Of a stretch of 64,000 nucleotides of DNA, positions 43,337-64,000 are shown piece after piece. The notes beneath the pieces were generated by a model. The model worked only from the letters and a program-made list of their open reading frames with translations, was not told the origin of the DNA and made no database searches. Origin of the DNA: Brachyhypopomus gauderio (Eukaryota; Chordata; Actinopteri; Gymnotiformes; Hypopomidae); assembly GCF_052324685.1 (NCBI RefSeq), contig NW_027506970.1, forward strand, positions 310,001 to 374,000, in the 5' to 3' direction. Every line of letters begins with the position of its first letter. Positions within the stretch are counted from its first letter, which is position 1. The translations under genes and the position numbers were made by a program.

Positions 43337-45634
43337 CAGGGGCGGACTGGCATACATTGCTACCGGGGATTTCCCCGGTGGGCCGATGGGTTAGTGGGCC
43401 GGTGGGCCGCCGGTGGTTTAACCAGGCATGAAAATCTGTCACCTTTCGGCGAAATTCGCCGTTTTGAAGTTGAAACGGGTGGCCTGCATGAATCGTGTAG
43501 ATCCGATGAGTTTTTTGTTGGGGGGGGGGGGGGGGGGGGGTGCGGGAGATTATATGTATATATTTTAATTATCATTGACTTAATAAGCAAACAGAGCACT
43601 TCCGAAATCGGCAATTTCAATGACACAGTGGCCAGCAGTTTCCGCCCCGAACCATCATAGAGGCCAAATAGCGTTTCAATCATACCAACGCTCTTCATTC
43701 ATGTTATTCATTTACTGCTAAGCGGGACGAGAAGCAGGACCTAGTGCTACACCGCAGACAAGTCAGAAGAGCGTACATTTACCACTACATTTACCAGATC
43801 GTACATTTACCACATTTACCAGATCGTACATTTCCCAGTGGATTTAATTGGGTTATTAATGGTTTCAATCGTTTTCATATTTTGCGGTAAAACAAAGTTA
43901 CTGCCATTACTGCGTTGAATACTGTCAGAGCCACAAGCTCTTGTGATAAATAGGTAGATAGATAGACCTATTAAGTTTGCGTAAACCCCGTGTAGTTAAC
44001 GGTGACATAAAATAAGAAACGAGATTTTTTTTCTAGTGTGTCTGTAGTTGTAACTGGTGAATCCAGGGACGGGTGAGGATAACATTCACGCCAGGGCTGA
44101 AAAGGTTGAAGATGAAGTTATAAACTCTTGTCGTTTGAGTCTACCCTGTGCTTTAGCCCATGTTAGAAAATAAAAACACGTGAACCTGGTATTTTTACAC
44201 TCATTTTTGCTGCTGATGTATTTATTGGTTCATTAAGACGTAATGGTTTTGACTGAGCCATCTGGAATGGCGAAAGCGGCCTCTCGCGTTTAAGGATCTG
44301 GCTCCATACATTGAATCCATTGACAAGACAGTCAAAAAAAAAAATTTAATGGATTTTACTATATTTTACGGAGCCCGTAAGGTGACATCATGTAAAAAAA
44401 AAAATAACGCGTGGCCACGACTTACTAACGCGTGGGAACGAGATACTAATGTCGCCTTTCACACGCGGCAACAAAGTTTATTTTTTCACAGCAAAGCAAG
44501 CAGATCCCAGGGATGTTCGCGAACTGACTGCCCAAGGAAGGTAAACCTGGCTTTATATAAAGTAATAATAACCCCCCCCCCCCCCCCCGTCGCCATATAC
44601 CCATGACGTCACATGTTAACGCCCCGTATCTCCATGACGTCACATGCCCCGCCCCCCGGTCTTCTCACCTTTTTAGCCCCTGACCCATTTTCATGCCTGT
44701 TTAACTCAGCCCGGTGTTATTACCTCCGATGGGTTAGTGGGCCGCCAGTGGTTTAACTCAGCCCGTGGAGGAGCCACTGCCACACACTGCGGCCCCGGCC
44801 CGTAGTCACGCTGCTGTTTAACGGTGTCTATTACCTCCCCCGCTCCAGTCAGACTAACCTGCTCAGCGCGGCCGCGGACTGGGCCTGTAAACACATGAAC
44901 GAGTTGGACCGCGGCCGCGGACTGGGCCAGCTGATGAGGGCTGATGGTATGCAGCGGAGATCAGAAAAAAAACCAACTTGTCCCAGAAAACATACAGCAG
45001 TTTAAATTGTAGATAACTTTATTTTAAACGTACTGCTGTCGCCTCTGCAACGTCTAAGGCACCATCTACAAATTACCTTAACACGGTTAACACGGACACA
45101 ATTGGCGGTCTTAAAGGCACTGTTTTTTTTTTCAAAGCTATTGAAATTCTTAGATTACCACTAACCACCACAAATAGGTAAGAGGAAGAAATACCCATGT
45201 TAGAGTTGTAGGTTGTTCTTTAGGATGCACTTTGCGTAAAACAACTTGTTTGGTGGTCTTATGATGGACTAGTTAAAAGCCACTATGTGGCTTTGTAATC
45301 ATATTATTGCTGGAATTAATATTGTCCATATGACAATAAACGCCGTCATATACACTACGTGCCATGTATAGATTCATATATATATATATAAGTGCTGTAT
45401 ATATATTGACAGCACTTATATATATATATATATATAAGTGCTGTCAATTCCAGGTGCCGCGATTAAAAGTCCTCACCAGGATTTTGCTCAGGCTTCCTGG
45501 ATTGTGTTGATTCCACTAATTTTACCTGGATTGCTAATTAGCTTGAGCAAAGTAAAATCCTGGTGAGGACTTTTAATCGCGGCACCTGGAATTCACAGCA
45601 CTAAAGTTCTCACCAGGATTTTATTTTGCTCAAG

Positions 45635-47426: not shown

Positions 47427-47952
47427 CTGGTTAAAACATTTAAGAGTGCAGTTCTAAATTTTGGCATGCAGAAGTTAGTCATCCAGGGTACATTTAGGGG
47501 AAAAAAAACATGGACACATTATTTACCAGTTAAATGCACTTTAAGTGACTTTCAAGAGCTTATATCGATGAAATGAAATGAAAGAATAATTATTGAATTA
47601 TTCATATTGATATATGTAAGATATTTTTTCTAATTTTCTTAGGGAGACTATATACAAAATGTATTGTAGCAACAGTGAGGAATGGGACAGAGAGTAAGAG
47701 TTTATTTTATTAAAGAAACTTTGCTTACCTCAAATAGGTGTAAGAGGAAAGAGAGGAAGCACCCCCACTAGGGGGAGTACTCACACACACAACACACATT
47801 CAGGGTGGCATTAACTAACTGTACGCTGCCATCTGGGGCCTCACAGACCCCGCCCAATGGTCACCCATTGGCAGGCGCTACAGTATTTTCTTTTTTTTAT
47901 GAATTATTTTTATAATGAGAAAATGAATGATTTGACAGTACATTTTACTTAC
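47427..47952. other. NLR intron, nothing seen
   Basis: No exon or recognisable element between the NACHT exon and the first LRR exon. Confidence 0.5.
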
Positions 47953-49692
47953 AAAGAGTGGTTTGAATGTCCCACAACAGGAAGTAGTCTCATCAGCCCT
48001 TCATCAGTTTGTGTGTATTTCTTCAAGTCAAACAGCTTCTGAGTATCCTCTGAAGTCATTAACAGAAAGACGAGGGCTGACCATTGTGTGGGAGACAGTA
48101 CCTCAGAAGAAAGAGTCCCAAACTTCACATAGCTCTGAACTTCTTCCACAAGGGAGTTGTCTCTCAGCTCATTCAGGCAGTAAAACAGATTAATGCTTCT
48201 CTCAGGTGAGAGGTTGGACCTGATTTTCTCTTTAAGGTGCTTTATGGTGTCATTGATGTTCATGTCACAAACTCTCATTTCTGGCAGGAGCTTCTTGATT
48301 TGTTTCTCGTTAGATTTGATTGACAACCCTAGCAGGAAGCGTAGGAATAAGTCCAGACGGCCTGTCTTACTTTCCAGGGCCTCATTGATCACACTCTTGT
48401 GCAGATCTAGAATCGTGTGATGGACAACCCATTTGAACTTCTCAGTAATCCTCCTCAGGACTGGATTTCTGCTGTTGTTTCTGTGCACATAAAACACATA
48501 GAGAGCAGCAAGGAACTCCTGAATGCTGAGATGCACAAAGCTAAAACACTTCTTTTCCTGCATTTCAAAGTCCAGCTTGAACATTTCTGTGCAGATGCCA
48601 GAATACACAGATGCTTCTTGGACATCAATGCCAGACGCCTTTAAGTCCTCCTCATAAAAGATCACATTACCTTTCTGCAACTGCAGAAATGCCAGCCGGC
48701 CCAGTTTCAGTACTACGTTATTCTTTTCATGGTACTTCTTCTCAGTCTGCTTGTTCTGAAAGATCAAGAAGCGAGTATACATTCCAGTCAATGTCGAGGG
48801 GATCTCCTGATCATCTTGTTGATTGAGCATTTCGTGAAGTACAGTTGCAAGGATCCTACAAAAGACAGGTATGTGGCACATTATGTGGAGGCTTTGGGAT
48901 GTCTTCATGTGGGCAATGATTTTGTTGGCTTCATGTGGATCACTGATCCTCTTCCTAAAGTACTCCTCCTTCTGTTCATTGGAAAATCCCTGGATTTCTG
49001 TGATCTGGTTGAAACACTCAAGGGGAACCCGACTGATCGCAGACGGTCGAGACGTGACCCAAACCAGAGCAGCAGGAATGAGCTCTCCTGCAATTAGGAC
49101 GACGTTTGGTGCTGAACATCATTCACAATCTCATTCTTGGTGAAGTTCAGAGGAAAGTGGCTCTCATCAAGCCCATCAAGAATAAAAAGGACCTTACTTT
49201 CATCAAAGGGAAGTGTGTTTGTGTACTTCACATCCAGAAAGAGGTGACGGAGCAGCTGCATCAGGCTGTATTTGCCACTCAGAAGGTTTAGCTTGCGAAA
49301 GGTGAGAGGGAATATGTAATCAATGTCCAGATTGGCCTTCCCCTCAGCCCAGTCTAAGACGAACTTGTCCACAGAGACGGTCTTTCCCACACCAGCAATG
49401 CCCAGAGTCAGCACCTTTCTGATATCTGTCCTGTCTTCAGGACGTGCCTTGAAAATGTCACAGTGTTTGATGGCTCTCTGTGTTGTGGCAGAGACCCTAT
49501 ACATTGATTGAATATGTCTCACTTCATGCTCATTGCAGACCCCACCAGTGCCACCCTTTATGATGTAGAGATCTGTGTAAATGTCATCCAGATATAAGGA
49601 AGGGTTGTCCAATGAGGGCTCTTCATGAATCAAGCCATGTTTTATCTTGAGTGAGGATTTTAACTTCTCACGGACTCGCTTGTGATCTGCAG
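47953..49692 (-). pseudogene. NLR gene: FISNA-NACHT exon with frameshift
   Basis: One large exon between CTATTTCAG and GTAAGT. FISNA-like start: ADHKRVREKLKSSLKIKHG, then YTDLYIIKGGTGGVCNEHEV. NACHT: Walker A LTLGIAGVGKTVSVDKF and Walker B VLFILDGLDESHF. A frame break near 49,100 follows NDVQHQTSS; the sequence resumes in another frame at VVLIAGELIPAALVWVTSRP. The family usually has several extra residues (SVDVLLTNLI-like) here, so a roughly 20-nt deletion is likely. The rest is open to the splice site and includes the winged-helix signature FSFVHLSIQEFLAALYVFY. As written the protein would stop shortly after Walker B, so this is a probable pseudogene. Confidence 0.9.
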
Positions 49693-50025
49693 CTGAAATA
49701 GCAAAAAAAAAATCATATTCATTAAATTTTTTGTACCTCATTGTAAAAAAGGCTAAACTCATAATTGTTTAGAATGTACATTTAATTTGTATGTTAGAAT
49801 TGATAAATTAGTCATTACAGACTGACATGACATCTATTTGATGGTCAAGTGCTTAAACATATCAACAAATGTCAGATTAAGTTGATAGGTATAACGCTGA
49901 CAAGTCATTTATGATGGAGAAGACAGAGTAAGCTAACGTTCGGGTTTCTAATCAAGTGATTCCCAGGTGTTGCAAATTTGCAAGTAACAAGCATTAAATT
50001 ACATCACAGCTGTGAAGACTTAGAC

Positions 50026-52458: not shown

Positions 52459-53492
52459 CAGAGGTGGGTAGAGTATTCAACAATTTTACTCAAGTAAAAG
52501 TACTGTTACTTGAACCAAATGTTACTCAAGTAAAGGTAAAAGTATGCATCCAAAAATTTACTTGAGTAAAAGTAAAAAAGTACTTTGATTAAAAGCTACT
52601 CAAGTAGTGAGTAAATGCATGAGTACTGTCTCGTGTCAATAAATTACATCATGGGAAATTGAATTACTGGAAACAATGACTTAATGATAACAAAAAGAAT
52701 GTATTATAAATAAATATAATATATAAAAAAAAATATTATAAATAATATGTATTTTTGTTTGTTCCTAATTATTAGACCTGTGTAACTTTAATGTGTTCCA
52801 CAAAGGCACTAACTGATGAGACTGTCAGCCAATACGTGTAGCTACAAATTGACGCCAACTGAATCAATTTGTAGCAAACTTAGTCATCATATATTGCTAG
52901 TGTGTACACTCGGAGTGTGAACTGGTTTTTAGTATTGCACTGCGTTACATTTAATAATTACATCATACAAGCGTTATGCCTCAGAGATATAGCATTACAC
53001 AAAATTATACATTCGGCAAACTTATCACATCGTGTTTCCTCAAATTTGATGTCGAGTTCTTGTAGGCTGAAATGTCCACACATTTGGCAGACACAACTTT
53101 ACACGTTTGTAATGTGAACATTGGCTGTATGAGGTCAGGGATGCTCGGGAGGTTTTTCTGTCACCATACTGTCTTGCTACTGTGGAGAAAGTTTGCGTAT
53201 GTGATCACGTGACTGACCGGCTTCATTTGATTGGTCACTCATACTCCGGTGCGGAGACGTTGGTCAGTCTTCTCACTGAAAAGACGAATTATTTACAAAA
53301 CGAAAGTAACGGTAGCGCGCGGCACAAATCCGATTGTAACGGAGCAAAAGTCGCGTTTTTCTCAGCACATATTTACTCAAGTAAAAGTAGAAGTCGTTCA
53401 TATTAAAACTACTCTTACAAGCACATTTTTGTCCAAAAAGCTACTTGAGTAAATGTAACAGAGTAAATGTAACGCGTTCCTACCCACCTCTG
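52459..53492. mobile_element. Non-autonomous hAT element, 1034 bp
   Basis: Ends CAGAGGTGGGTAGAGTA and TACCCACCTCTG, with repeated ACTTGAGTAAA/TTACTCAAGTAA subterminal motifs. The exact 8-bp duplication GTTATGAA flanks it (52451-52458 and 53493-53500). Confidence 0.95.
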
Positions 53493-54071: not shown

Positions 54072-54428
54072 TATGGGAGGTATTTCCTGCCAATAATAAA
54101 ACTAAAATGAAAACACTAAAATGAAAATGAAAATACCGTTTTGCCATTTCTTTTTCCATACATGTGTGAAAATATTATGACAAAATTAAAAATAAAATGA
54201 AATCACTTAATTTGCAATTTAATTTTTCACTCGAGCACAGGTCATATGTGACAAATATAAAATGAAAATTAAAAAGGAGGATTGGCGCTACCTGCTGGTG
54301 ATTTTCTTTTTCATTTTCCACTTTTCATTTTCTTTTTCCACTTTTCATTTTCGTTTTCAACTTCACCAGCATGCAAATACATGTAAATGAACAGTAGGTG
54401 GAGCTACAACTACAGTACCTCCCGTGAA
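54072..54428. repeat. Snap-back A/T-rich segment, possible transposon end
   Basis: Starts TATGGGAGGTATTTCCTG, and an inverted, weaker match (TACCTCCCGTG) lies at 54,414. The interior has ATTTTCATTTT-type runs on opposite strands and an inverted CTGGTGA/TCACCAG pair. It lies just upstream of integrase-like remnants and could be the left terminus of the integrase-bearing element. Evidence is weak. Confidence 0.35.
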
Positions 54429-54453
54429 ATCCAGAGAGGGCAGCACACAGCGA

Positions 54454-54740
54454 CATGGCTGACGTTTTACTAGAAACGGCAAATGAGATTGTGAGGTTGG
54501 CGAATTGCCAGATTATATATTGCTTAGATGTGAAGTAATCTTGCAGGTTAATAGTGTTGTATGTCGAAATATATGTGAAGTGGTAGAACGCTTAGGGTCT
54601 GGATCGGGGACCATGGAAAACCGCCCAGTGCGAGGTCGGCCTAGGTTGGACGTTGCCGCAGAGACAACGCTGAAGTTGGTTACTTATTCGCAGTTTCAGA
54701 TTCGTTTGGCTACTTATTCGCAGCTCCTTATTCGGTTCAC
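54454..54740 (+). pseudogene. Decayed 5' remnant of an integrase-family gene
   Basis: An ATG at 54,454 opens MADVLLETANEIVRLANC before a stop. After an acceptor-like TAATCTTGCAG, another stretch reads VCRNICEVVERLGSG and PVRGRPRLDV. The GRPR motif after an N-terminal helix resembles the GPGRPAF motif of the intact integrase downstream. I read this as a truncated relative or ancestral 5' part. Confidence 0.4.
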
Positions 54741-55425
54741 GATGCGTGTTTACTGCGCACTTTGTTTAAAAGAGATAGATTAAACAAACGAGCATAGGAG
54801 GCTAGGAGCATACATTAAGAGGTTATTGTTTCCCATACTGATTTTGTGAATGTAGAAAAAAATATTAAAATATAAGGAAAGCATTCCTTTTTGTAAAATG
54901 GTTTATATTTCAAGTCGTTACAATTGTATGTAATTTGTACATGATTATGGAATTCGTCAGCATTTCTAACGTAAGGAAACATATTCTTAGATTTGAAAAC
55001 TAAAAACACAGAAATGCTGTTCTAGAACACAAATCAATCGGAAGAAGATATACAAGCACACAACATGGTATATTGAGCAGTGAACGAATTTACAGGGGAA
55101 GGTTCAGTATGGAGGGTTATTTGTGACAATATTATATAAATAAATGAACAAAGAAATAATTGTTTAAAACGTTAAATAAATATTTAAAATGAGATTTAAT
55201 TAATTAAATTATTTAAATATGGAAAGGAAGCATAAATAATTTTATGTAATTAAATTCATCGTTAGTTGATTGTGATATTTGTATTTCATTAATTGTTTAA
55301 CTTAAATAATTTAATTAATTATTTCATTATTTATTTCATTATTTCAAGCGCGTCGTCGAACCATGAAATAATTAAATCTGTCAACATCAGCCATCAAACT
55401 CAGTGGGCGGGCCTAACTCCGATCG
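54741..55425. other. AT-rich upstream region of the integrase gene
   Basis: Very AT-rich, with TTAATTAATTAA-type stretches at 55,190-55,370. A promoter could lie here, but no clear motif was identified. Confidence 0.4.
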
Positions 55426-58400
55426 ATGCAGGTTGATTGCTCTGGCCTGTGTGAGTGTTTTCTCAGCATGGTGGCTCTCGACATGGATCTGCAGGACATT
55501 TCTCAGGAGTTCGTTAGAACTATCTTACAGCTAGCGGAGGAAATTGAATCAGGGGCTGCAGCCCCAGACTCTGTCACTGATCAAATACACGACTTTATAG
55601 AAGTGTTAGGGCTGCTTTCTGCTCTCTCTCACCAAAATATAGACTACAGGGTAACTGCAAACTTTGAAGAAGTGCTCCAGCGCTTCTCCATCCAACCACA
55701 GCAAACTACAGCAGGCCCAGGTCGCCCAGCCTTTCACATCCCCAGCGGAATGCTGGAGCACCATGTTCTCTGTGGAGTAACAGCTCCTGAAATCGCAGAT
55801 ATGTATGGAGTGTCTGAGAGGACCATCAGGAGACACATGGAACAGAACGGAATACGGTGGGTAACCAATCATTTGTTCCATATAAATTTCCCTAATTTCC
55901 CTAATGTAGCATCATCTAGTTCAGGTATCACCAAATGGCGGACCGCGGTCCGGATCCGGACCCGAACGCCGTCCTGTCCGGACCCAATCACATTCCTGAT
56001 TAACTGGATACGGACCCAAATGCGGAAATTTAACGGGAGACTATATTTTAAACCGGAGAATTTATTTTCAGACGAGTGTTACGTTCACCACCCATTTGAG
56101 TGTTACGTTCACCACCGCCCCCCCCCCCCCCCCCCGCTCAACAACTTTCGTTCGCCACCGCGGACCCGGACCTAAGGTCTGAGCTATCTGCCAAAAATGG
56201 ACCGCGGAAAGATTTAATTGATTACCCCTGATCTAGTTCTAACTAAAGTACTGAAAGTACTAGCTAGGTCAGTGTAACGTTTGTCAGTGTAACGTATATT
56301 TTTGCACCCAATTTTCTCAAACGGTCAGAAAACTGAACTGATAAACGTTACACTGACCTTACTACTATATGAAAACAGTTTATCATGGCTTTAATATACT
56401 AAAACATTGAGCTATGAACACCAAACTTAACTTGTTTATTACTCTTCATTCATACTGTCTACTGCTGTAAAGATGAACATGTACAATTGTAAAGTATATT
56501 GTATAGAGATATCCCTTTCCCATCATATATGACTTTGCTCAATGCTTTTGTTTGCTGCAGAAAGACAGACCTCTATTCACCACTCACTAATGAAGAGCTG
56601 GACTACATTGTAACTGATGTCCACAGAAGCCACCCAAACACGGGCTACAAGCTAATGCATGGTCTTCTGAAAGCCAGAGGTATACGTGTTCCAAGTAAGT
56701 GTGTAGAGAGACATTGTATTGGATGGGATTTAATGCTATCTAGCTGTGTAAAGAATGAAGAGAGCACTGCAATGGTTTTAATGTTCTGGCTGATATATAC
56801 AGCTGTTTAGAGAATGAAGAGAGCGCTGTGTGTGAAAGACTGCCCTGCCAAAAATCCAGCTCACGCCCAGCTTGTCATCCACAAAAACATAGCCTATGCT
56901 GGTAAAGAGCTAGTTTTTTATTGGGTGTCCAGCTGGACGTGGGCTGGATTTTTTTTTTTAGAAGGGTAGTGGCGAGCAAGCCAAGGTGCATGAAAGCTGT
57001 GATTAAATATCAGGGTTATTCCACCAAATATTGATTAGTGAACTCATCCAAAGTTAAAACATTACTATTGTTATTTCTAAATGAATATGAACTTGTTTTC
57101 TTTGCATTATTTGAGCTCTGAAAGTATTGCATCTTTTCCTTATTTTTATATTTCATATTTTCTGCAGAAAATGCTCTAAATGAAAATATTTTCATTTGGA
57201 ATTTTAGAGAAATATTGTCAGCAGTATATAGAATGAACCAATAATGTTCATTTTACTCACATACATCACTTGCAATGGTCTCTTAATTTTTTTCCAGAGT
57301 GGTATGTGTTTTTCAGCTATATTTCTTTTCAGTCTCAAGGTTGAGAGAGTCTTTTCGCAGAGTTGATGCAGAGGGTGTGTGCATGAGACGTCTACGGTTG
57401 CATACACTAAGACGACGGCAGTATTCTGTGCCTGGCCCAAATTACTTATGGCACATCGACGGTAACCATAAGCTCATAAGGTATCAGTAATACTGGCAGA
57501 AAGAAAAATCTATGTACAGATATGTGTACAACATTGTGAGTTAGCTAACCTGTTCACAATTGTCTCTTTCATACAGATGGAGGTTTGTGGTCCATGGAGG
57601 GGTGGATGGATTCAGTCGCTTGGTGGTTTACCTTACTGTGGCTGGCAATAACAGAGCAAACACAGTCTTACAGAGCTTTCTCACAGCTGTTGATGAGTAT
57701 GGATTGCCATCAAGGGTACGATCTGATAAAGGTGGGGAGAATGCAGACGTTGCAGAATTTATGATCAGGAGCAGAGGTACCAACAGAAATTCCCACATCA
57801 CCGGCAGAAGTGTTCATAATCAACGGTAAATTCACTTCCCTTACATTATAGTGTTAATTGATTGTACAAGAGAAGATATACAATCCAGGTTATGTCTTTC
57901 TTACAGAATAGAAAGGTTGTGGAGGGATGTTTATGAGCATGCTCTAGACCTCTTCTACCAGATCTTTGTCTCTTTGGAAGATCAGTCAGCACTTCACCCT
58001 GACAATGAACTCTATCTATTTGCCTTGCATTGGATCTTCCTACCACAAATACAGAGGCATCTCAAGTCTTTCAGAGATGCTTGGAACTTCCATGGCCTTA
58101 GAACTGAAAGGGGTCAGTCACCAGAACAACTCTGGAGAAGATACAGAGAGCAAACTCCCACAGAGGACTTAACCGAGGTATGTATTCATTGAGAAGTCAA
58201 TATTTTAATGTAATTAAACATTCTGCATGCGTGCATTTCAAACATTTGCTTATATTTTTTACTGAAAAACTAGCTGGTTTGTTACTGCAACAGTAGGTAT
58301 TATACACTGACTGGTCATTAAGTACGTTATCTTTGCTTCTACGATGAGCATTGGGTACTGTAAGAAGTCACTAGTCTATTATGATAATATATTTCATAGG

Positions 58401-58600
58401 TTAATGAAGACTATGGGATTGACTGGAATGGGCCTCACACCCTTCTTGACAACACTGTATCTGTTCCGGAGATCCAGCTGCGCCGTGAGCTCACCGATGA
58501 TGAACTTGCTTCTTTGCCAGTTCCAGGGGGGCCTTTGGATCGCACAATTGGCATGTACTTGGAGACTGTTCAGATTTTGTCAAGAATCATAGGAGACTGA
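55426..58600 (+). CDS. rve-type DDE integrase/transposase, six exons, intact
   Basis: Exons: 55426-55856, 56561-56694, 57333-57480, 57577-57825, 57907-58177 and 58400-58600. They total 1434 nt, and every junction phase (2, 1, 2, 2, 0) matches, giving 477 residues plus TGA. A later Met, before VALDMDLQD, could also start it. Domains: N-terminal helices; a GPGRPAF hinge; an HTH with [19 protein letters not shown] at about residues 120-140; a linker ([26 protein letters not shown]). The RNase H-like core follows. Catalytic Asp at 57458-57460 in [11 protein letters not shown], Asp at 57725-57727 in [10 protein letters not shown] and Glu at 57911-57913 in [10 protein letters not shown] give D-56-D-34-E spacing. 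It resembles the eukaryotic IS3-like (IS3EU) transposases or the related animal rve-domain family; this assignment is from memory. A closed frame with all three acids suggests recent function. AATAAA begins right after the stop. Confidence 0.92.
55922..56230. mobile_element. hAT MITE in integrase intron 1, 309 bp
   Basis: Ends CAGGTATCACCAAATGG and TTGATTACCCCTG are flanked by the exact duplication ATCTAGTT (55914-55921 and 56231-56238). It contains a poly-C run and GCTCAACAACTTTCGTTCG. It inserted within intron 1 and left the splice sites intact; the first exon's open frame runs into it only because that frame has no stop. Confidence 0.92.
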
Positions 58601-59668
58601 AATAAATTGCATATAATTTATTCTTGTAGCATATCTAGACAAACATGCATTGGATTTTCAACAACAGTTAATGAAAAGCAAAAAATAAACACTTTGTTTT
58701 AACAGCATGAATTTGACATAATTCTTTGTTTTCTGGAACTAAAATAAACTGTGTTGTTAAACAGCCCTATCCTGTTTGTCCATTTTATTACAGAATAAAA
58801 TAGTGAAGCTAAACATGAGTTAAACTCTTCCCTTTGCAAGCCTCTTTCAAACATGAGGTGAAAAAAAAACTTAATCTTGTTGGTACAGACTTATCAATTT
58901 GATCTGAGCAACATCACCAGGTGCACAAAATGTGCCATGAACTAAGGTCTGGAACAAATGACCAAAGTTTGGTCCAACGTAATGAGGTTGTCTTCGGCCA
59001 GAACAACTGAACCATGGTTAAGTTCATCTGCAGTGTGAAAACACAGATGTTTTAACCTTTTGGACTAATCAGATGAAGTTGAGACATGATATTGTAATGC
59101 ATTCAATAACAGCAGAAGAAAAAGAACTGTGTTGTGCCGTTATCACCCACATCCACATACCACCCCCCCTTTTTTAGGAACAGAAATAAAAGTAATTAGA
59201 GGGGATTGCACTACCCTGAATCTGCTGCAGGATAGGCCTACAGTTGGATTCAGTACAACACCTGGAAAGATAACACTGCTCAACTGCTAACATTCTACAT
59301 GTCAATCGGTGTTGAGTACAGAGCGACTCTGCTCACCTAGGTGATGATGGCAGGATGTAGTAAAATTGTTTAGTGCGCTCAGTCACTAAACTGCAGTGTG
59401 AAATGAAAAGTAACTGGACTAAATACAGTATACAATGTCACAAATAACTGTGGTTTGAACTTCAGACTTGTGTCCAATCTTATTCAAAAAGACTGGTGTG
59501 GCTGCAGGTTTGAAACAACGTGCAGCACACTGGGTTTCATGTATAATCAATAAGTCACTCTTCAAACAACTGATTACCTGAGCTTGTGACTGGCTGGAAT
59601 GAAAATCTGCAGTCACACTGGCCTTTTGCAGACAAGATTGGACAACCCTGATCTAAGGGAAAGTTGTG
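58601..59668. other. Spacer between convergent integrase and HECT genes
   Basis: About 1.07 kb separates the two stop codons. AATAAA at 58,601 serves the integrase; further A-rich signals follow at 58,682 and 58,740. No exon is supported on either strand. Confidence 0.6.
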
Positions 59669-62600
59669 TTAAACTAGTCCAAATCCAGTGTGTGTGCTAT
59701 TTATGGAAGCCATAAAGGCAGCCTCAAAGTCTGTGTAGGACTTAAAATGAACTGGCAGCTTCAAAGTTTCAAAGCATGTGGTGGATGTAGGAAAGGATCC
59801 TCTGGACAGCTCCACTTTGAGTTCACATGGCAGCACCTCCCACCCCACCCAGAACTTTAGCAGCTCGGCCAGTTTCCTTGGTGAAGCTAAAAGTCAACGA
59901 ACACAGAATATTAGAATAAGGATTTTTTCATCAGAAACAACTGTACTGCAAACATTCCATTCCATTGTTTGCATACATATGTATGCATTTTCTGTAAAAC
60001 TGCATACTGTACCTGTGATAAGGACAACAGAGTAGTATTAACACAACCGTACCTGTTTCTATGAACAGGCGCAGAAAACCAGTAATGCGACATGTGGTCT
60101 CAACATCAAATTCATCATCATCATCACTGTCCTCAACAGGCCAAATTATTTTGTCAAGGAGCATCTGAGGGGTGAAAACATTCAACAATGTTAATTAGTT
60201 GCATAAATGCACATTTACATAGATCACGGGACATATAGATTTGCATATTTTTACACAGGAAATTCTCCCAGTTGGTTACAAAACATACCGATTACAAGGT
60301 TTACAGATGACGAAAAATACTCGTGTGAACACAATCATGATATAAAACTGAGGAAAAATAAATCACCTGGGGAGTGTAGAGCGTTTCACCTGTTCTGGGG
60401 AAAACCAGCGAGACAACGTCGGGTCTAGATATCAGGAAGGGCCATACCATCACATCTTTCAGACCCTTCCTTAGCTGCTTTATTTGACGCTTGGTCCTTC
60501 CAATGACCTAAATGATATAGCCAACACAAATGAGAACTTTCTACCAGGAGAGGCACGGATAGAAATTGTCAAATTTAACTGTGTTAAATCATGTTTAAAA
60601 TGCTCAGTTTTTTAAAGTGATTTGGTGACAATTTGGTGTTTATATGTAATAGCTTGCCAATTTCCACCTCTCAACACTGAACATAAAAACAGTAATTTCA
60701 CTGAAAAAAATATGTCTCTAGTAGCGTGAACTTACAGCATGGACCAATAGTTTGTTCTGTAGCCATCTCCTATTTGTTTTTGTGACTGCTGGAAGATCCC
60801 ACGACATGGATAGATCTGAGACAGTGTCCTGTTGCTCCTGAGTAAGTTCTTCAGTTTCAAGCTAAAATTTAGATTATTATATAAAAGTTATTACACTAAG
60901 ACACAATTAAAAAAAGTACATGACAATTTTCAGAAATATTGGATATGCTTATGTGCTGTCTTCACTTATGGGCCTGATTCTCCCAAAGAACATAAGACAG
61001 TTAAAAATAACTACACTTATTTAACTGAATCACCTCTACATGACCAAACCACGTATTGTGTATTTCCAAGGACTGTCTAACAGTACTGTATTTTACTATA
61101 GATTAAAATGTAACATCACACACACACACCCTTTGAACACAGTTCTTAAATAGCATTACACTTAGGCATATATCTTGTGAACAAGCCCAGTAATCTATCC
61201 TACAAAATGTTTAAGAACAAATTAATAACGGCATTGATGATTATTATAGATATTAATAAAGTAAAACAAAGTGATTACTAATCAGCACAGAGCTCTTTCA
61301 TTAACCCTTCTTCATTCTGAAGTTGTGCACCATAGGCATGCCACTGACCCAAGGAAATACTAAGTGTAAATAGCACCCAATATGTGTCATATTTTGAATC
61401 CATAAAAATGCACTATGAAATGCAGAAACCAAAACCAAAAACCTTTACGCTTAACCCTTGTATGGTGTTCATTTTGTATCAAATGAAAAAAATACACTTA
61501 ATTATTTTTAAATCTCAGACTCATTGGCCTTGGCTAATTTTCTATGAAGAACATGTTGTATATCAAAACGCATTTTCAATGAACAAAATGTGAATGTGAA
61601 CTCAGTGTTTGCGGGTCCACCAAACCCACAAACACTGAGTAACAAAAATATCAGCACCACACAAGGGTTAAAACAGGCAATTTCATGTACCATTTCTATT
61701 ATGCTCCTGATGTGCAAATCGGGACAGTCTTCTGTGACAATTGTTGCCATTTCTGGGTCTCCATTGAACAACACATGGATTATAGCTGGACTTAATCCTG
61801 TCACACATGGGCCATCATGCAAGAAGGAATGACCCAACATCCTTCCAGCAACCTGGAAGAGATTGCTCTCAATAAGGGACTCTGATGTGGCTGGAACGAG
61901 GTGGTCAGGCTGACCCTCAAATAACAGCGTTCGACCTGTGCCACCTGTCAGTAATACAAAACAGGCCATTACAGTGGTATAAGTAACTTACTGACTCTCA
62001 TTTACACATGCTATAATATATGCTTTATACACACACCGAGATTTAGACTGAATCCAAACTGAAGTTTGGATATTATTGTTGTCAGAAAGTACCGCACCAC
62101 TCCTTGTCCAACAGCAGCATCCCCTGTCATAAAACAAAATATTTATTCAATAATTGAAATAAAAGTAGTGTCTAACAGATTTTTGTCTGTAGCTGTCATT
62201 TAAATTTTAACTCACTATATTACTAACCATCAAGGGCACATTGAAGAGGACATGCCCATTCACGTTGCTCTTTATAGAATGACAGAAGTGCACGCTCTCT
62301 GTCTTCCTCAGTGTCCCTTATATCCATCTTCAGTTTAAGTGGCCTTCCAGATGCATGTTCCCCAAGTAAGCTCTCCTTGAAAACTTTGGAGGCTTGAACT
62401 GGATTTTCAATAAGTCCCCATTCTACACACACAAAAAATATGTGCACAACACAAGATCCATAAATGTTATACCATTTTGAAAATCATTACAAACAAATCA
62501 AAACTATATGGCTACTCTGCTGTGTGAATACAAACCACGATCTGCTGCTCTGTGCTCAAACTCTTCACTGTCAGCCACAACTACTGCACTTGCAACCGAT

Positions 62601-63329
62601 GTCCCTGCTGACTCCGGCCTTACTTGGATACGGTCACTGACCGCGTCTGGTTCCCTAACATTAGCCTCACCCTGATTTTCCTCTCCATCCCTATCTGATT
62701 CCTGAATGGATGTCCTTAAAGTAACAAAATAAGATTTACTTATCATACTCACTAGAATGTACAACAAGCCAAAATACAAATCCAAGCACAGAAATTGGTT
62801 GTGTAGCTACATACCCTTTACAGTTCTCCCTGTGCAGTTTCATTTCAGAGAAAAGAACACCCCTCTGACAAGTGAGGCAGGAGATGACTGGACCAGGGGC
62901 ACGACGAGCACCTTCCTAATAATGTAGTGGAAAGATTCATAAAATAGCATTTTAATTAATTACCGCTATAACTGATGATTTTATAGAATATAACAATAAA
63001 GAACAACATTAATGTGTAAGAAGTATAAACTTTTTTTTCACAATGTGTAAAAGTATAGCTTACAGATTCAAAAGGCAGGTCTTGTTGAAGTGGGCGTATG
63101 TAGATTGTAGCCTGTCCAATCATTGTAGCTGGATCTTTCAGATAGACAAGTGTGTATCCAGAGTTGGGACAAGGGAGTAATGCCAGACTTCGACTGCGAG
63201 TAGATCCAGCAACTTTGAGAAGCTCAAAACCACCCCCTTCACGAAGTTTTGGATATACTTCCATCAGTCTGTTCGTTACTACCATAGGATCTGCATAATT
63301 TCCTGATTACATAAAAAAATATATACACA

Positions 63330-63392
<63 letters not shown>

Positions 63393-63758
63393 TAATTTCA
63401 GAGTTAGAGTTATGCACACATTAATATTGTGAGCCAAACTGCATTGTGACTGGCACAGAAACAGAACTTTACAGTTCTTTCAAGCACAATTACTGAAACA
63501 CAAATGAACAAAAGCAAATTACAACTCATAAATGATCAAACTAACCTGAAAATGATACTTTTTTTTCTCCAAGTCCTGAGGCTGCAAGGTCTGCCTTCTC
63601 CTGTACACTTGGAACTGTATCAGCCTTGTGACCATGCAAGCAACAGAAGGTGTGTGTGTAGTAATTGCATCGAATTGCAGGGCTCTGCAATTGACGTCTA
63701 GCATACCTTCTAGGTGTAATGTTATTGCTGTATGGAGCAAAGAGCCTTGCCACCTCGG
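59669..63758 (-). CDS. HECT-type E3 ubiquitin ligase-like gene, 11 exons, 5' end missing
   Basis: Minus-strand exons 5' to 3': 63758-63546, 63290-63064, 62915-62815, 62714-62539, 62422-62228, 62123-62037, 61944-61691, 60861-60736, 60507-60367, 60164-60053 and 59886-59669. All phases agree (1, 0, 2, 1, 1, 1, 0, 0, 0, 1), giving about 616 residues to TAA. The first listed exon enters in phase 1, so an earlier exon lies outside. Order: a basic ARLFAPYSNNITPRRYARR region; a LREGGGFELLK and YIRPLQQDL module; a C2HC finger (CLTCQRG, then KLHRENC); an acidic linker; then HECT. HECT marks are GTGRTLLFEGQPDHLVP, WLQNKLLVHA, and the C-lobe TSTTCFETLKLP with catalytic Cys (codon 59774-59776), ending GFGLV. 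It resembles multi-copy fish genes annotated as G2E3-like. In HECT enzymes this Cys accepts ubiquitin from E2. The intact frame and Cys imply activity. Confidence 0.9.
63343..63391. repeat. (CA)n microsatellite
   Basis: About 24 CA dinucleotides in the intron between the first two visible HECT-gene exons. Confidence 0.95.
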
Positions 63759-64000
63759 CTGCATATAGAGAGAAACAAAAATGTCACAACAAAAATGAGA
63801 ACCACCGACTGAAAACAAAGGATTAACTATATGCTGTCTAGTAGAATGGCGACAAAGCTTAAGTTCCTTATTCTCATGCTACTCTAAATGATTCTAAAAT
63901 GTATCAGAAAATAAAGTGTAAAAAAAATTAAGTAAATAGTGCTCCCCTTAACATGAGAACCCAGACCCAGTTCTGAATGTTTATTCAAAATAACAATCAT

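Follow-up and report, generated by a model that had tools for sequence, protein, structure and literature searches.

A putative IS3EU-type transposon of Brachyhypopomus gauderio with a predicted HECT E3 ubiquitin ligase as its second gene

A 64,000-bp stretch of the genome of the fish Brachyhypopomus gauderio (contig NW_027506970.1, positions 310,001 to 374,000; here called the window) was found to contain the left part of a 10,642-bp DNA transposon, in which a predicted transposase gene and a predicted HECT E3 ubiquitin ligase gene converge between long terminal inverted repeats. The anatomy of the element, combined with the long-term pairing of the two genes, makes it very probable that this is one cut-and-paste transposon of the IS3EU type that has a HECT E3 as second gene. 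Copies of it have transposed with both genes in one unit, and some are flanked by a 6-bp target site duplication (TSD). A first-pass annotation of the window had proposed a single large DNA transposon holding both genes, and this was borne out by the shared termini that bound them and by the joint movement of the copies. The genome searched comprised 796.5 Mb in 840 contigs, one of which, C126, carries the window (C126:310001-374000). The parts of the element are given below; extended coordinates carry the window numbering on rightwards, 65749 being C126:375749.

55108..64000, + strand: transposon, left part, from the homology limits of genomic copies and the termini TATGGAGGG...CCCTCCATA
55108..55432, + strand: left terminal inverted repeat, 325 bp, 1 mismatch between arms, 28 arm matches in the genome
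55426..58600, + strand: rva_4/rve-type DDE transposase gene, from its six exons, Pfam and an open frame
55426-55856, 56561-56694, 57333-57480, 57577-57825, 57907-58177 and 58400-58600, + strand: transposase exons
58601..59668: spacer separating the 3' ends of the genes; polyadenylation-type signals on both strands
59669..63758, - strand: predicted HECT E3 gene, 11 of 12 coding exons in the window, from frame joining and Pfam
63546-63758, 63064-63302, 62815-62915, 62536-62714, 62228-62422, 62037-62123, 61691-61944, 60736-60861, 60367-60507, 60053-60164 and 59669-59886, - strand: E3 exons in the window
extended 65310-65175, - strand: first coding exon of the E3 (MSRSCPELL...), off the window, its donor phase fitting the acceptor at 63758
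extended 65425-65749: right terminal inverted repeat, partner of the left arm

To locate the ends, the window, extended to the right, was compared with 20 kb around nine other transposase copies. Homology in the complete copies started at 55108 and stopped at 65749, within 10 bp, which places 8,893 bp of the transposon inside the window and its right end 1.75 kb beyond the window edge. The termini have the form TATGG..CCATA, and the start TATGGAGGG and end CCCTCCATA were present in all seven listed full-length copies and at four further loci. The terminal inverted repeats are 325 bp long, with the arms of the window copy matching at 324 of the first 325 positions (1 mismatch in the alignment), and both the transposase (PF24764) and the HECT E3 gene lie convergent between them. 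The expectation of termini shared around both genes was thus confirmed, both ends being found at 11 loci. In the spacer, AATAAA occurs at 58601 on the plus strand, and TTTATT at 58784 and 58617 represents AATAAA on the minus strand.

The left end had earlier been put at 54,072. This was abandoned in favor of 55108, where the copies begin, as the 16-mer at 54072 occurs once in the window when up to 3 mismatches are allowed. An inverse of that end at 54416-54426 was also rejected, being imperfect (approximately 11 bp shared) and having no exact TSD. The right end at 65749 carries the 325-bp repeat that pairs with the arm starting at 55108. A transposase-only element ending in the spacer was ruled out by the copies, and a scan for TA..TA termini with an exact 6-bp TSD gave one poor match.

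The transposase gene was annotated initially as six exons at 55,426-58,600 (+) with a D56D34E triad, and this structure was retained. Its introns are of the GT/AG type and the exons form an open frame of 477 aa, which may start at the ATG at 55470 instead of 55426. Residues 219-399 match rva_4 (PF24764, E = 3.9e-86), while the rve match fell below the cut-off; the triad is D231-D288-E323, and an HHCC motif was not found by the one pattern used. NCBIfam gave sub-threshold similarity to IS481 (1.9e-13) and IS3 (7.4e-10). A sequence search of solved structures with the transposase gave no match, and no relatives were found in plasmids, which were searched with the transposase only. Neither protein had relatives in viral contigs or prokaryote genomes, a degenerate motif scan producing two loci resembling chance.

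The eleven E3 exons in the window join in frame, with close alternatives at a few splice sites. The exon at 63546-63758 begins at an acceptor and has no in-frame ATG; with the exon beyond the window edge, the whole gene has 12 coding exons encoding 666 aa, and the window copy has no internal stop. A nearly complete HECT domain is C-terminal (PF00632, E = 6.8e-12, profile positions 22-305 of 306, 46.1 bits versus a cut-off of 23.9). The catalytic cysteine of HECT ligases usually lies approximately 35 residues from the C terminus, and Cys632, in the motif STTCFETL, is 34 residues before the protein end. By domain and motif, the product is a predicted HECT E3 ubiquitin ligase. A short C2HC finger occupies residues 209-228 of the whole protein. 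Of the earlier description, the in-frame exons, the cysteine in STTCFETL and the short finger stood, whereas the gene is not complete in the window because its first exon is outside it. G2E3 orthologues have PHD/RING-like fingers ahead of the HECT domain; these were not found here, Pfam returning HECT only at E values up to 0.1 for the 623-aa window part of the protein. The window E3 may be akin to G2E3. The E3 search of solved structures produced one weak unrelated match. Within the first E3 intron, at extended 64350-64740, AGGGTGACCATA...GGTCACCCTA with long internal G runs was noticed by eye and is probably a nested short element.

Close copies of the element were found at 12 loci, in agreement with the initial suggestion that the E3 is multi-copy, and both terminal repeats were found at 11 of these. 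The 28 arm matches in the genome are accounted for by the 11 two-ended loci, a single end in C67, a three-arm cluster in C20 and short pieces in C6 and C67. The locus at C26:969631-1018985 is the window insertion duplicated, its flanks being 99.96% alike over the 9.1 kb compared; the C26 transposon spans 49 kb, with approximately 39 kb of extra DNA inside the E3 gene. Perfect TSDs of 6 bp flank four of the 10 distinct insertions that have both ends. In addition, a repeat at approximately 44.7-45.0 kb in the window lacks the element, and the copy of this repeat in C14 holds the transposon between two GTAGTC.

C6: TSD CAGGGT
C2: TSD GAAGTG
C14: TSD GTAGTC
C70: TSD AAGATG
44802..44807, + strand: paralogous empty site with a single GTAGTC, across which the joined flanks of the C14 copy (copy J) align

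Pairing of the two genes was then assessed across the genome. The search with the E3 protein gave 99 matches, 67 of 549 candidates being scored. Twelve loci have an E3 copy whose best exon is ≥91% alike; they are the 12 that hold the close transposase copies, and at each of them the transposase is convergent with the E3; its distance to the best E3 exon is 43 kb in C26, 12.6 kb in C163 and 4.0-6.3 kb elsewhere. Eighteen further E3 loci are distant (best exons 54-61% identical), and at 15 of them the nearest listed rva_4 match is convergent, within 20 kb in 14 cases and at 37.6 kb in one. In a separate PF00632 search, all 138 matches were merged into 82 loci and compared with 122 rva_4 entries. 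Twenty of the 82 HECT loci are within 10 kb of a listed rva_4 match, every one of them in tail-to-tail orientation; uniform placement would give 0.25 such loci, a figure that ignores clustering. The 20 overlap the 18 distant E3 loci in six cases, and they do not include the window family because its exons are absent from the HECT list. The rva_4 list is incomplete, 150 of 701 candidates having been scored and part of the 183 matches listed, and rows taken for a second exon of the same locus were dropped by hand. The co-location of the two families that the first-pass annotation had postulated therefore holds in this genome (20/82 HECT loci, 12/12 close and 15/18 distant E3 loci). Further groups of HECT C-lobes with repeated identical scores (for example C119:332268, C14:14435913, C6:30275283 and C27:1150081; C9:4787606 and C17:1269862) have no listed rva_4 within 10 kb and may belong to other transposon families or to unlisted rva_4 copies.

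Seven paired lineages were compared from partial sequences: the window, C34, C7, C11, C1:39.5M, C1:25.3M (L003) and C333 (L010). They share 38-64% identity over the core of the transposase and 26-55% over the C-lobe of the E3, and all seven keep the D, D, E triad and the TC of the HECT cysteine motif. Pairwise transposase distances are correlated with those of the E3 (r = 0.598, a value reached in 18 of 5040 label permutations); an eighth sequence, L008, has no E3 match in 3.5 kb and lacks the first D, and it was kept outside the correlation. The E3 match extends over several exons in C34, C7 and C11. These comparisons show predicted transposase and E3 genes of related families to be paired tail-to-tail in several diverged lineages, and such lasting pairing suggests that the E3 favors the spread of the element.

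Among seven young copies, segregating sites number 19/1994 in E3 exons, 15/1259 in transposase exons and 105/6108 in noncoding sequence outside the arms; by one-sided Fisher tests against the noncoding sites, the E3 is less variable (p = 0.008), with p = 0.11 for the transposase. Six of the eight aligned copies keep an open transposase frame; one of the six has a 6-base gap. The mean noncoding divergence among the seven copies is 0.65%.

A number of observations weigh against the proposal of a transposon with a functional, lasting E3 partner. Six of the 10 distinct insertions, the window copy among them, have no TSD. The first 40 bases of the right flank of the window copy recur 14 times in the 18 kb to the right of extended 65749, mostly at alternating spacings of approximately 1.5 and 0.6 kb, so that the transposon sits at the edge of an array; since this flank is a much-repeated unit, rearrangement could have removed the TSD of the window copy, which leaves the other five TSD-less insertions unexplained. 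No listed rva_4 is near three of the 18 distant E3 loci, nor within 10 kb of 62 of the 82 HECT loci, a set of 62 that should include ordinary HECT genes of the host. Only the C-lobe of the E3 was detected in three of the seven lineages, by weak tblastn matches (E = 0.51 for L003, 0.22 for L010 and 0.009 for C1:39.5M) that cover 46/73 residues in L003 and 54/73 in L010, stop letters in the matches being skipped; a Pfam HECT match was obtained in C1:39.5M and L003, and none is listed for L010. Termini of the distant lineages were not found by the terminal repeat and TSD scan, and their evidence is therefore adjacency. The alignments of the copy pairs C34/C20 and C7/C14 extend through nearly all of the fetched DNA, and that of C11/C1 does so in three blocks; the ends may therefore be outside this DNA or the pairs may be large duplications.

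The young copies add to these points. Replacement and silent changes in the E3 number 16 and 10 over eight rows, a ratio to neutral of 0.56 that is not significant (p = 0.11), and those in the transposase number 16 and 3, a ratio of 1.8 that shows no constraint among copies this young. Of the eight aligned copies, three have an open E3 frame, four have a broken one and one is incompletely covered; both frames are open in two of the eight. These two copies, together with the low noncoding divergence, suggest recent activity. As judged from such comparisons, the short-term evidence of E3 function appears modest, and the case for it consequently rests on what has been kept across lineages, namely the cysteine and the pairing.

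Described IS3EU elements have TA..TA termini, a TSD usually of 6 bp and a DDE transposase without HHCC whose first D is 100-300 residues in (excerpts of PMC10045372 and PMC12730594), and the fungal TET-carrying families have TAYGG..CCRTA termini and inverted repeats of >30 bp (excerpt of PMC12730594). The termini found here, TATGG..CCATA, agree with TAYGG..CCRTA, and the repeats of 325 bp exceed 30 bp. D231 is within the 100-300 range, the triad is DDE with HHCC absent by one pattern, and the 6-bp TSD is perfect at four of 10 distinct insertions, in addition to the empty site, and absent at six. By its described features, as opposed to a transposase tree, the element fits IS3EU, and the IS481/IS3 similarity of the predicted transposase is in line with the relationship given for IS3EU in excerpts of PMC10045372 and PMC12730594. 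It resembles that superfamily in termini, TSD, repeat length and a DDE transposase without HHCC, and differs in having a HECT E3 as second gene. No HECT cargo is named in the excerpted IS3EU descriptions (PMC10045372, PMC12730594), and no report of a HECT-carrying IS3EU was found in the open-licence PMC literature, Repbase entries, a possible place for one, being outside that search.

Accessory enzymes have precedents. Some eukaryotic transposons of other superfamilies carry Ulp1-type proteases, which remove a modifier; they share with the present element an accessory enzyme of the ubiquitin/SUMO pathway, but a HECT ligase attaches the modifier. Fungal IS3EU elements carry TET/JBP dioxygenases and an alpha-kinase opposite to the transposase, and the dioxygenases are thought by their author to aid escape from methylation-based silencing (excerpt of PMC12730594). 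The opposite-oriented accessory enzyme (the alpha-kinase there) is alike, whereas the HECT ligase and the fish host are different. In fish, the unclassified repetitive elements that have gained copies in invasive Cottus include one with a G2E3 match (PMC5638112, excerpt), an observation compatible with a mobile carrier, and the B-chromosome genes listed for Astyanax include g2e3 (PMC7976721, excerpt). These G2E3-like HECT genes are likewise multi-copy, but no carrier transposon is named in the excerpts of PMC5638112 and PMC7976721. In carp, the bacterial artificial chromosome KJ424358 carries, approximately 10 kb apart, a G2/M-specific-E3-like gene (61,013-72,269) and an uncharacterised one (82,474-87,673) (PMC5549377, excerpt), which is a lead and not evidence. 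RAG1 is a transposase descendant with a RING domain and ubiquitin-ligase activity (PMC4411706, excerpt). It is alike in coupling a DDE recombinase (Transib-derived) to a ubiquitin ligase, but its RING is fused, whereas here the HECT is a separate gene.

We considered whether two neighboring genes had simply been joined by chance or segmental duplication, with no transposon involved. The C26 locus, which shares the window flanks as a duplicate of the same insertion, would accord with such an origin, but copies in other surroundings diverge from the window at the same two ends, and with the 6-bp TSDs and the empty site this makes the idea exceedingly improbable. Alternatively, the anatomy could be as described and the transposase belong to a sister rva_4 lineage outside IS3EU, since the sub-threshold IS481 and IS3 similarities could suit several related groups; as the termini, 6-bp TSDs, repeats of >30 bp, lack of HHCC by one pattern and position of the first D all fit IS3EU, we regard this as unlikely. 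The E3 might also be a passenger, a host HECT gene captured once and having no role in transposition. The weak purifying signal in young copies and the E3 frame broken in four of eight would accord with this, but the pairing was kept across lineages that are 26-55% identical in the E3 C-lobe, with the cysteine in 7/7, and pieces with these termini and no E3 match are few (the C20 three-arm cluster and a 106-bp C6 fragment), so that a passenger seems quite improbable.

For a transposon in which the E3 takes part, the arms suggest how the two genes may be expressed. The first ATG of the transposase begins 6 bp before the left arm ends, and the first ATG of the E3 is 115 bp beyond the inner edge of the right arm; since both ATGs are close to the inner edges of the arms, each arm may be the promoter of one gene, and as twin promoters the arms would cause both proteins to be produced together. 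The transposase would bind to the arms, cleave at TATGG/CCATA and integrate with a 6-bp stagger; this final step is demonstrated by the duplications at four insertions and the empty site. The E3 would act in trans on proteins with which the host restricts or silences the element. Such host proteins are our tentative first choice of target, because the accessory enzymes of related elements, the fungal IS3EU, point that way. With the same anatomy, the E3 may instead ubiquitinate its own transposase or strand-transfer complex, limiting its dosage or clearing a stable complex from DNA, as ClpX clears the stable transposition complex of phage Mu. Both genes begin at the same 325-bp repeat, which could fix their ratio, and the protein distances correlate, although correlated divergence is also expected from mere linkage. 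In view of the RING ligase activity of RAG1 (PMC4411706, excerpt), the transposase is a possible target nearly as likely as host proteins.

It is an evenly balanced question whether a fish (perhaps other animal) branch of IS3EU has run on an obligate pair of transposase and HECT E3 from the time when the six or seven lineages observed here shared an ancestor. If so, many multi-copy fish G2E3-like genes would be transposon genes, and element-borne ubiquitination would be a step of transposition or of escape from host control. The accessory enzymes of eukaryotic DNA transposons reveal what an element needs from its host or must overcome in it, and a long-standing HECT partner makes the dependence of transposition on element-borne ubiquitination directly testable. 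The pairing could explain many near-identical fish HECT genes and advises caution against counting them as host immune or cell-cycle expansions.

Other features were observed to the left of the element. Just upstream of it, at 54455-54700, an ATG is followed by MADVLLETANEIVR..., with GRPRLDVA in another frame, presumably the relic of another transposase N terminus. The pair TATGGGAGGTA...TACCTCCCGTG (54072-54426, 355 bp apart) encloses AAAATGAAAA-type repeats and may be a degraded miniature inverted-repeat transposable element; it has no exact duplication. Pieces of a fish-specific NLR gene (FISNA, NACHT, NOD2_WH and NLRC4_HD2) lie at 47949-49768 on the minus strand. At 52459-53492, a 1,034-bp element CAGAGGTGGGTAG...CTACCCACCTCTG, which we take to be hAT-like, is flanked by a perfect 8-bp target duplication, GTTATGAA.

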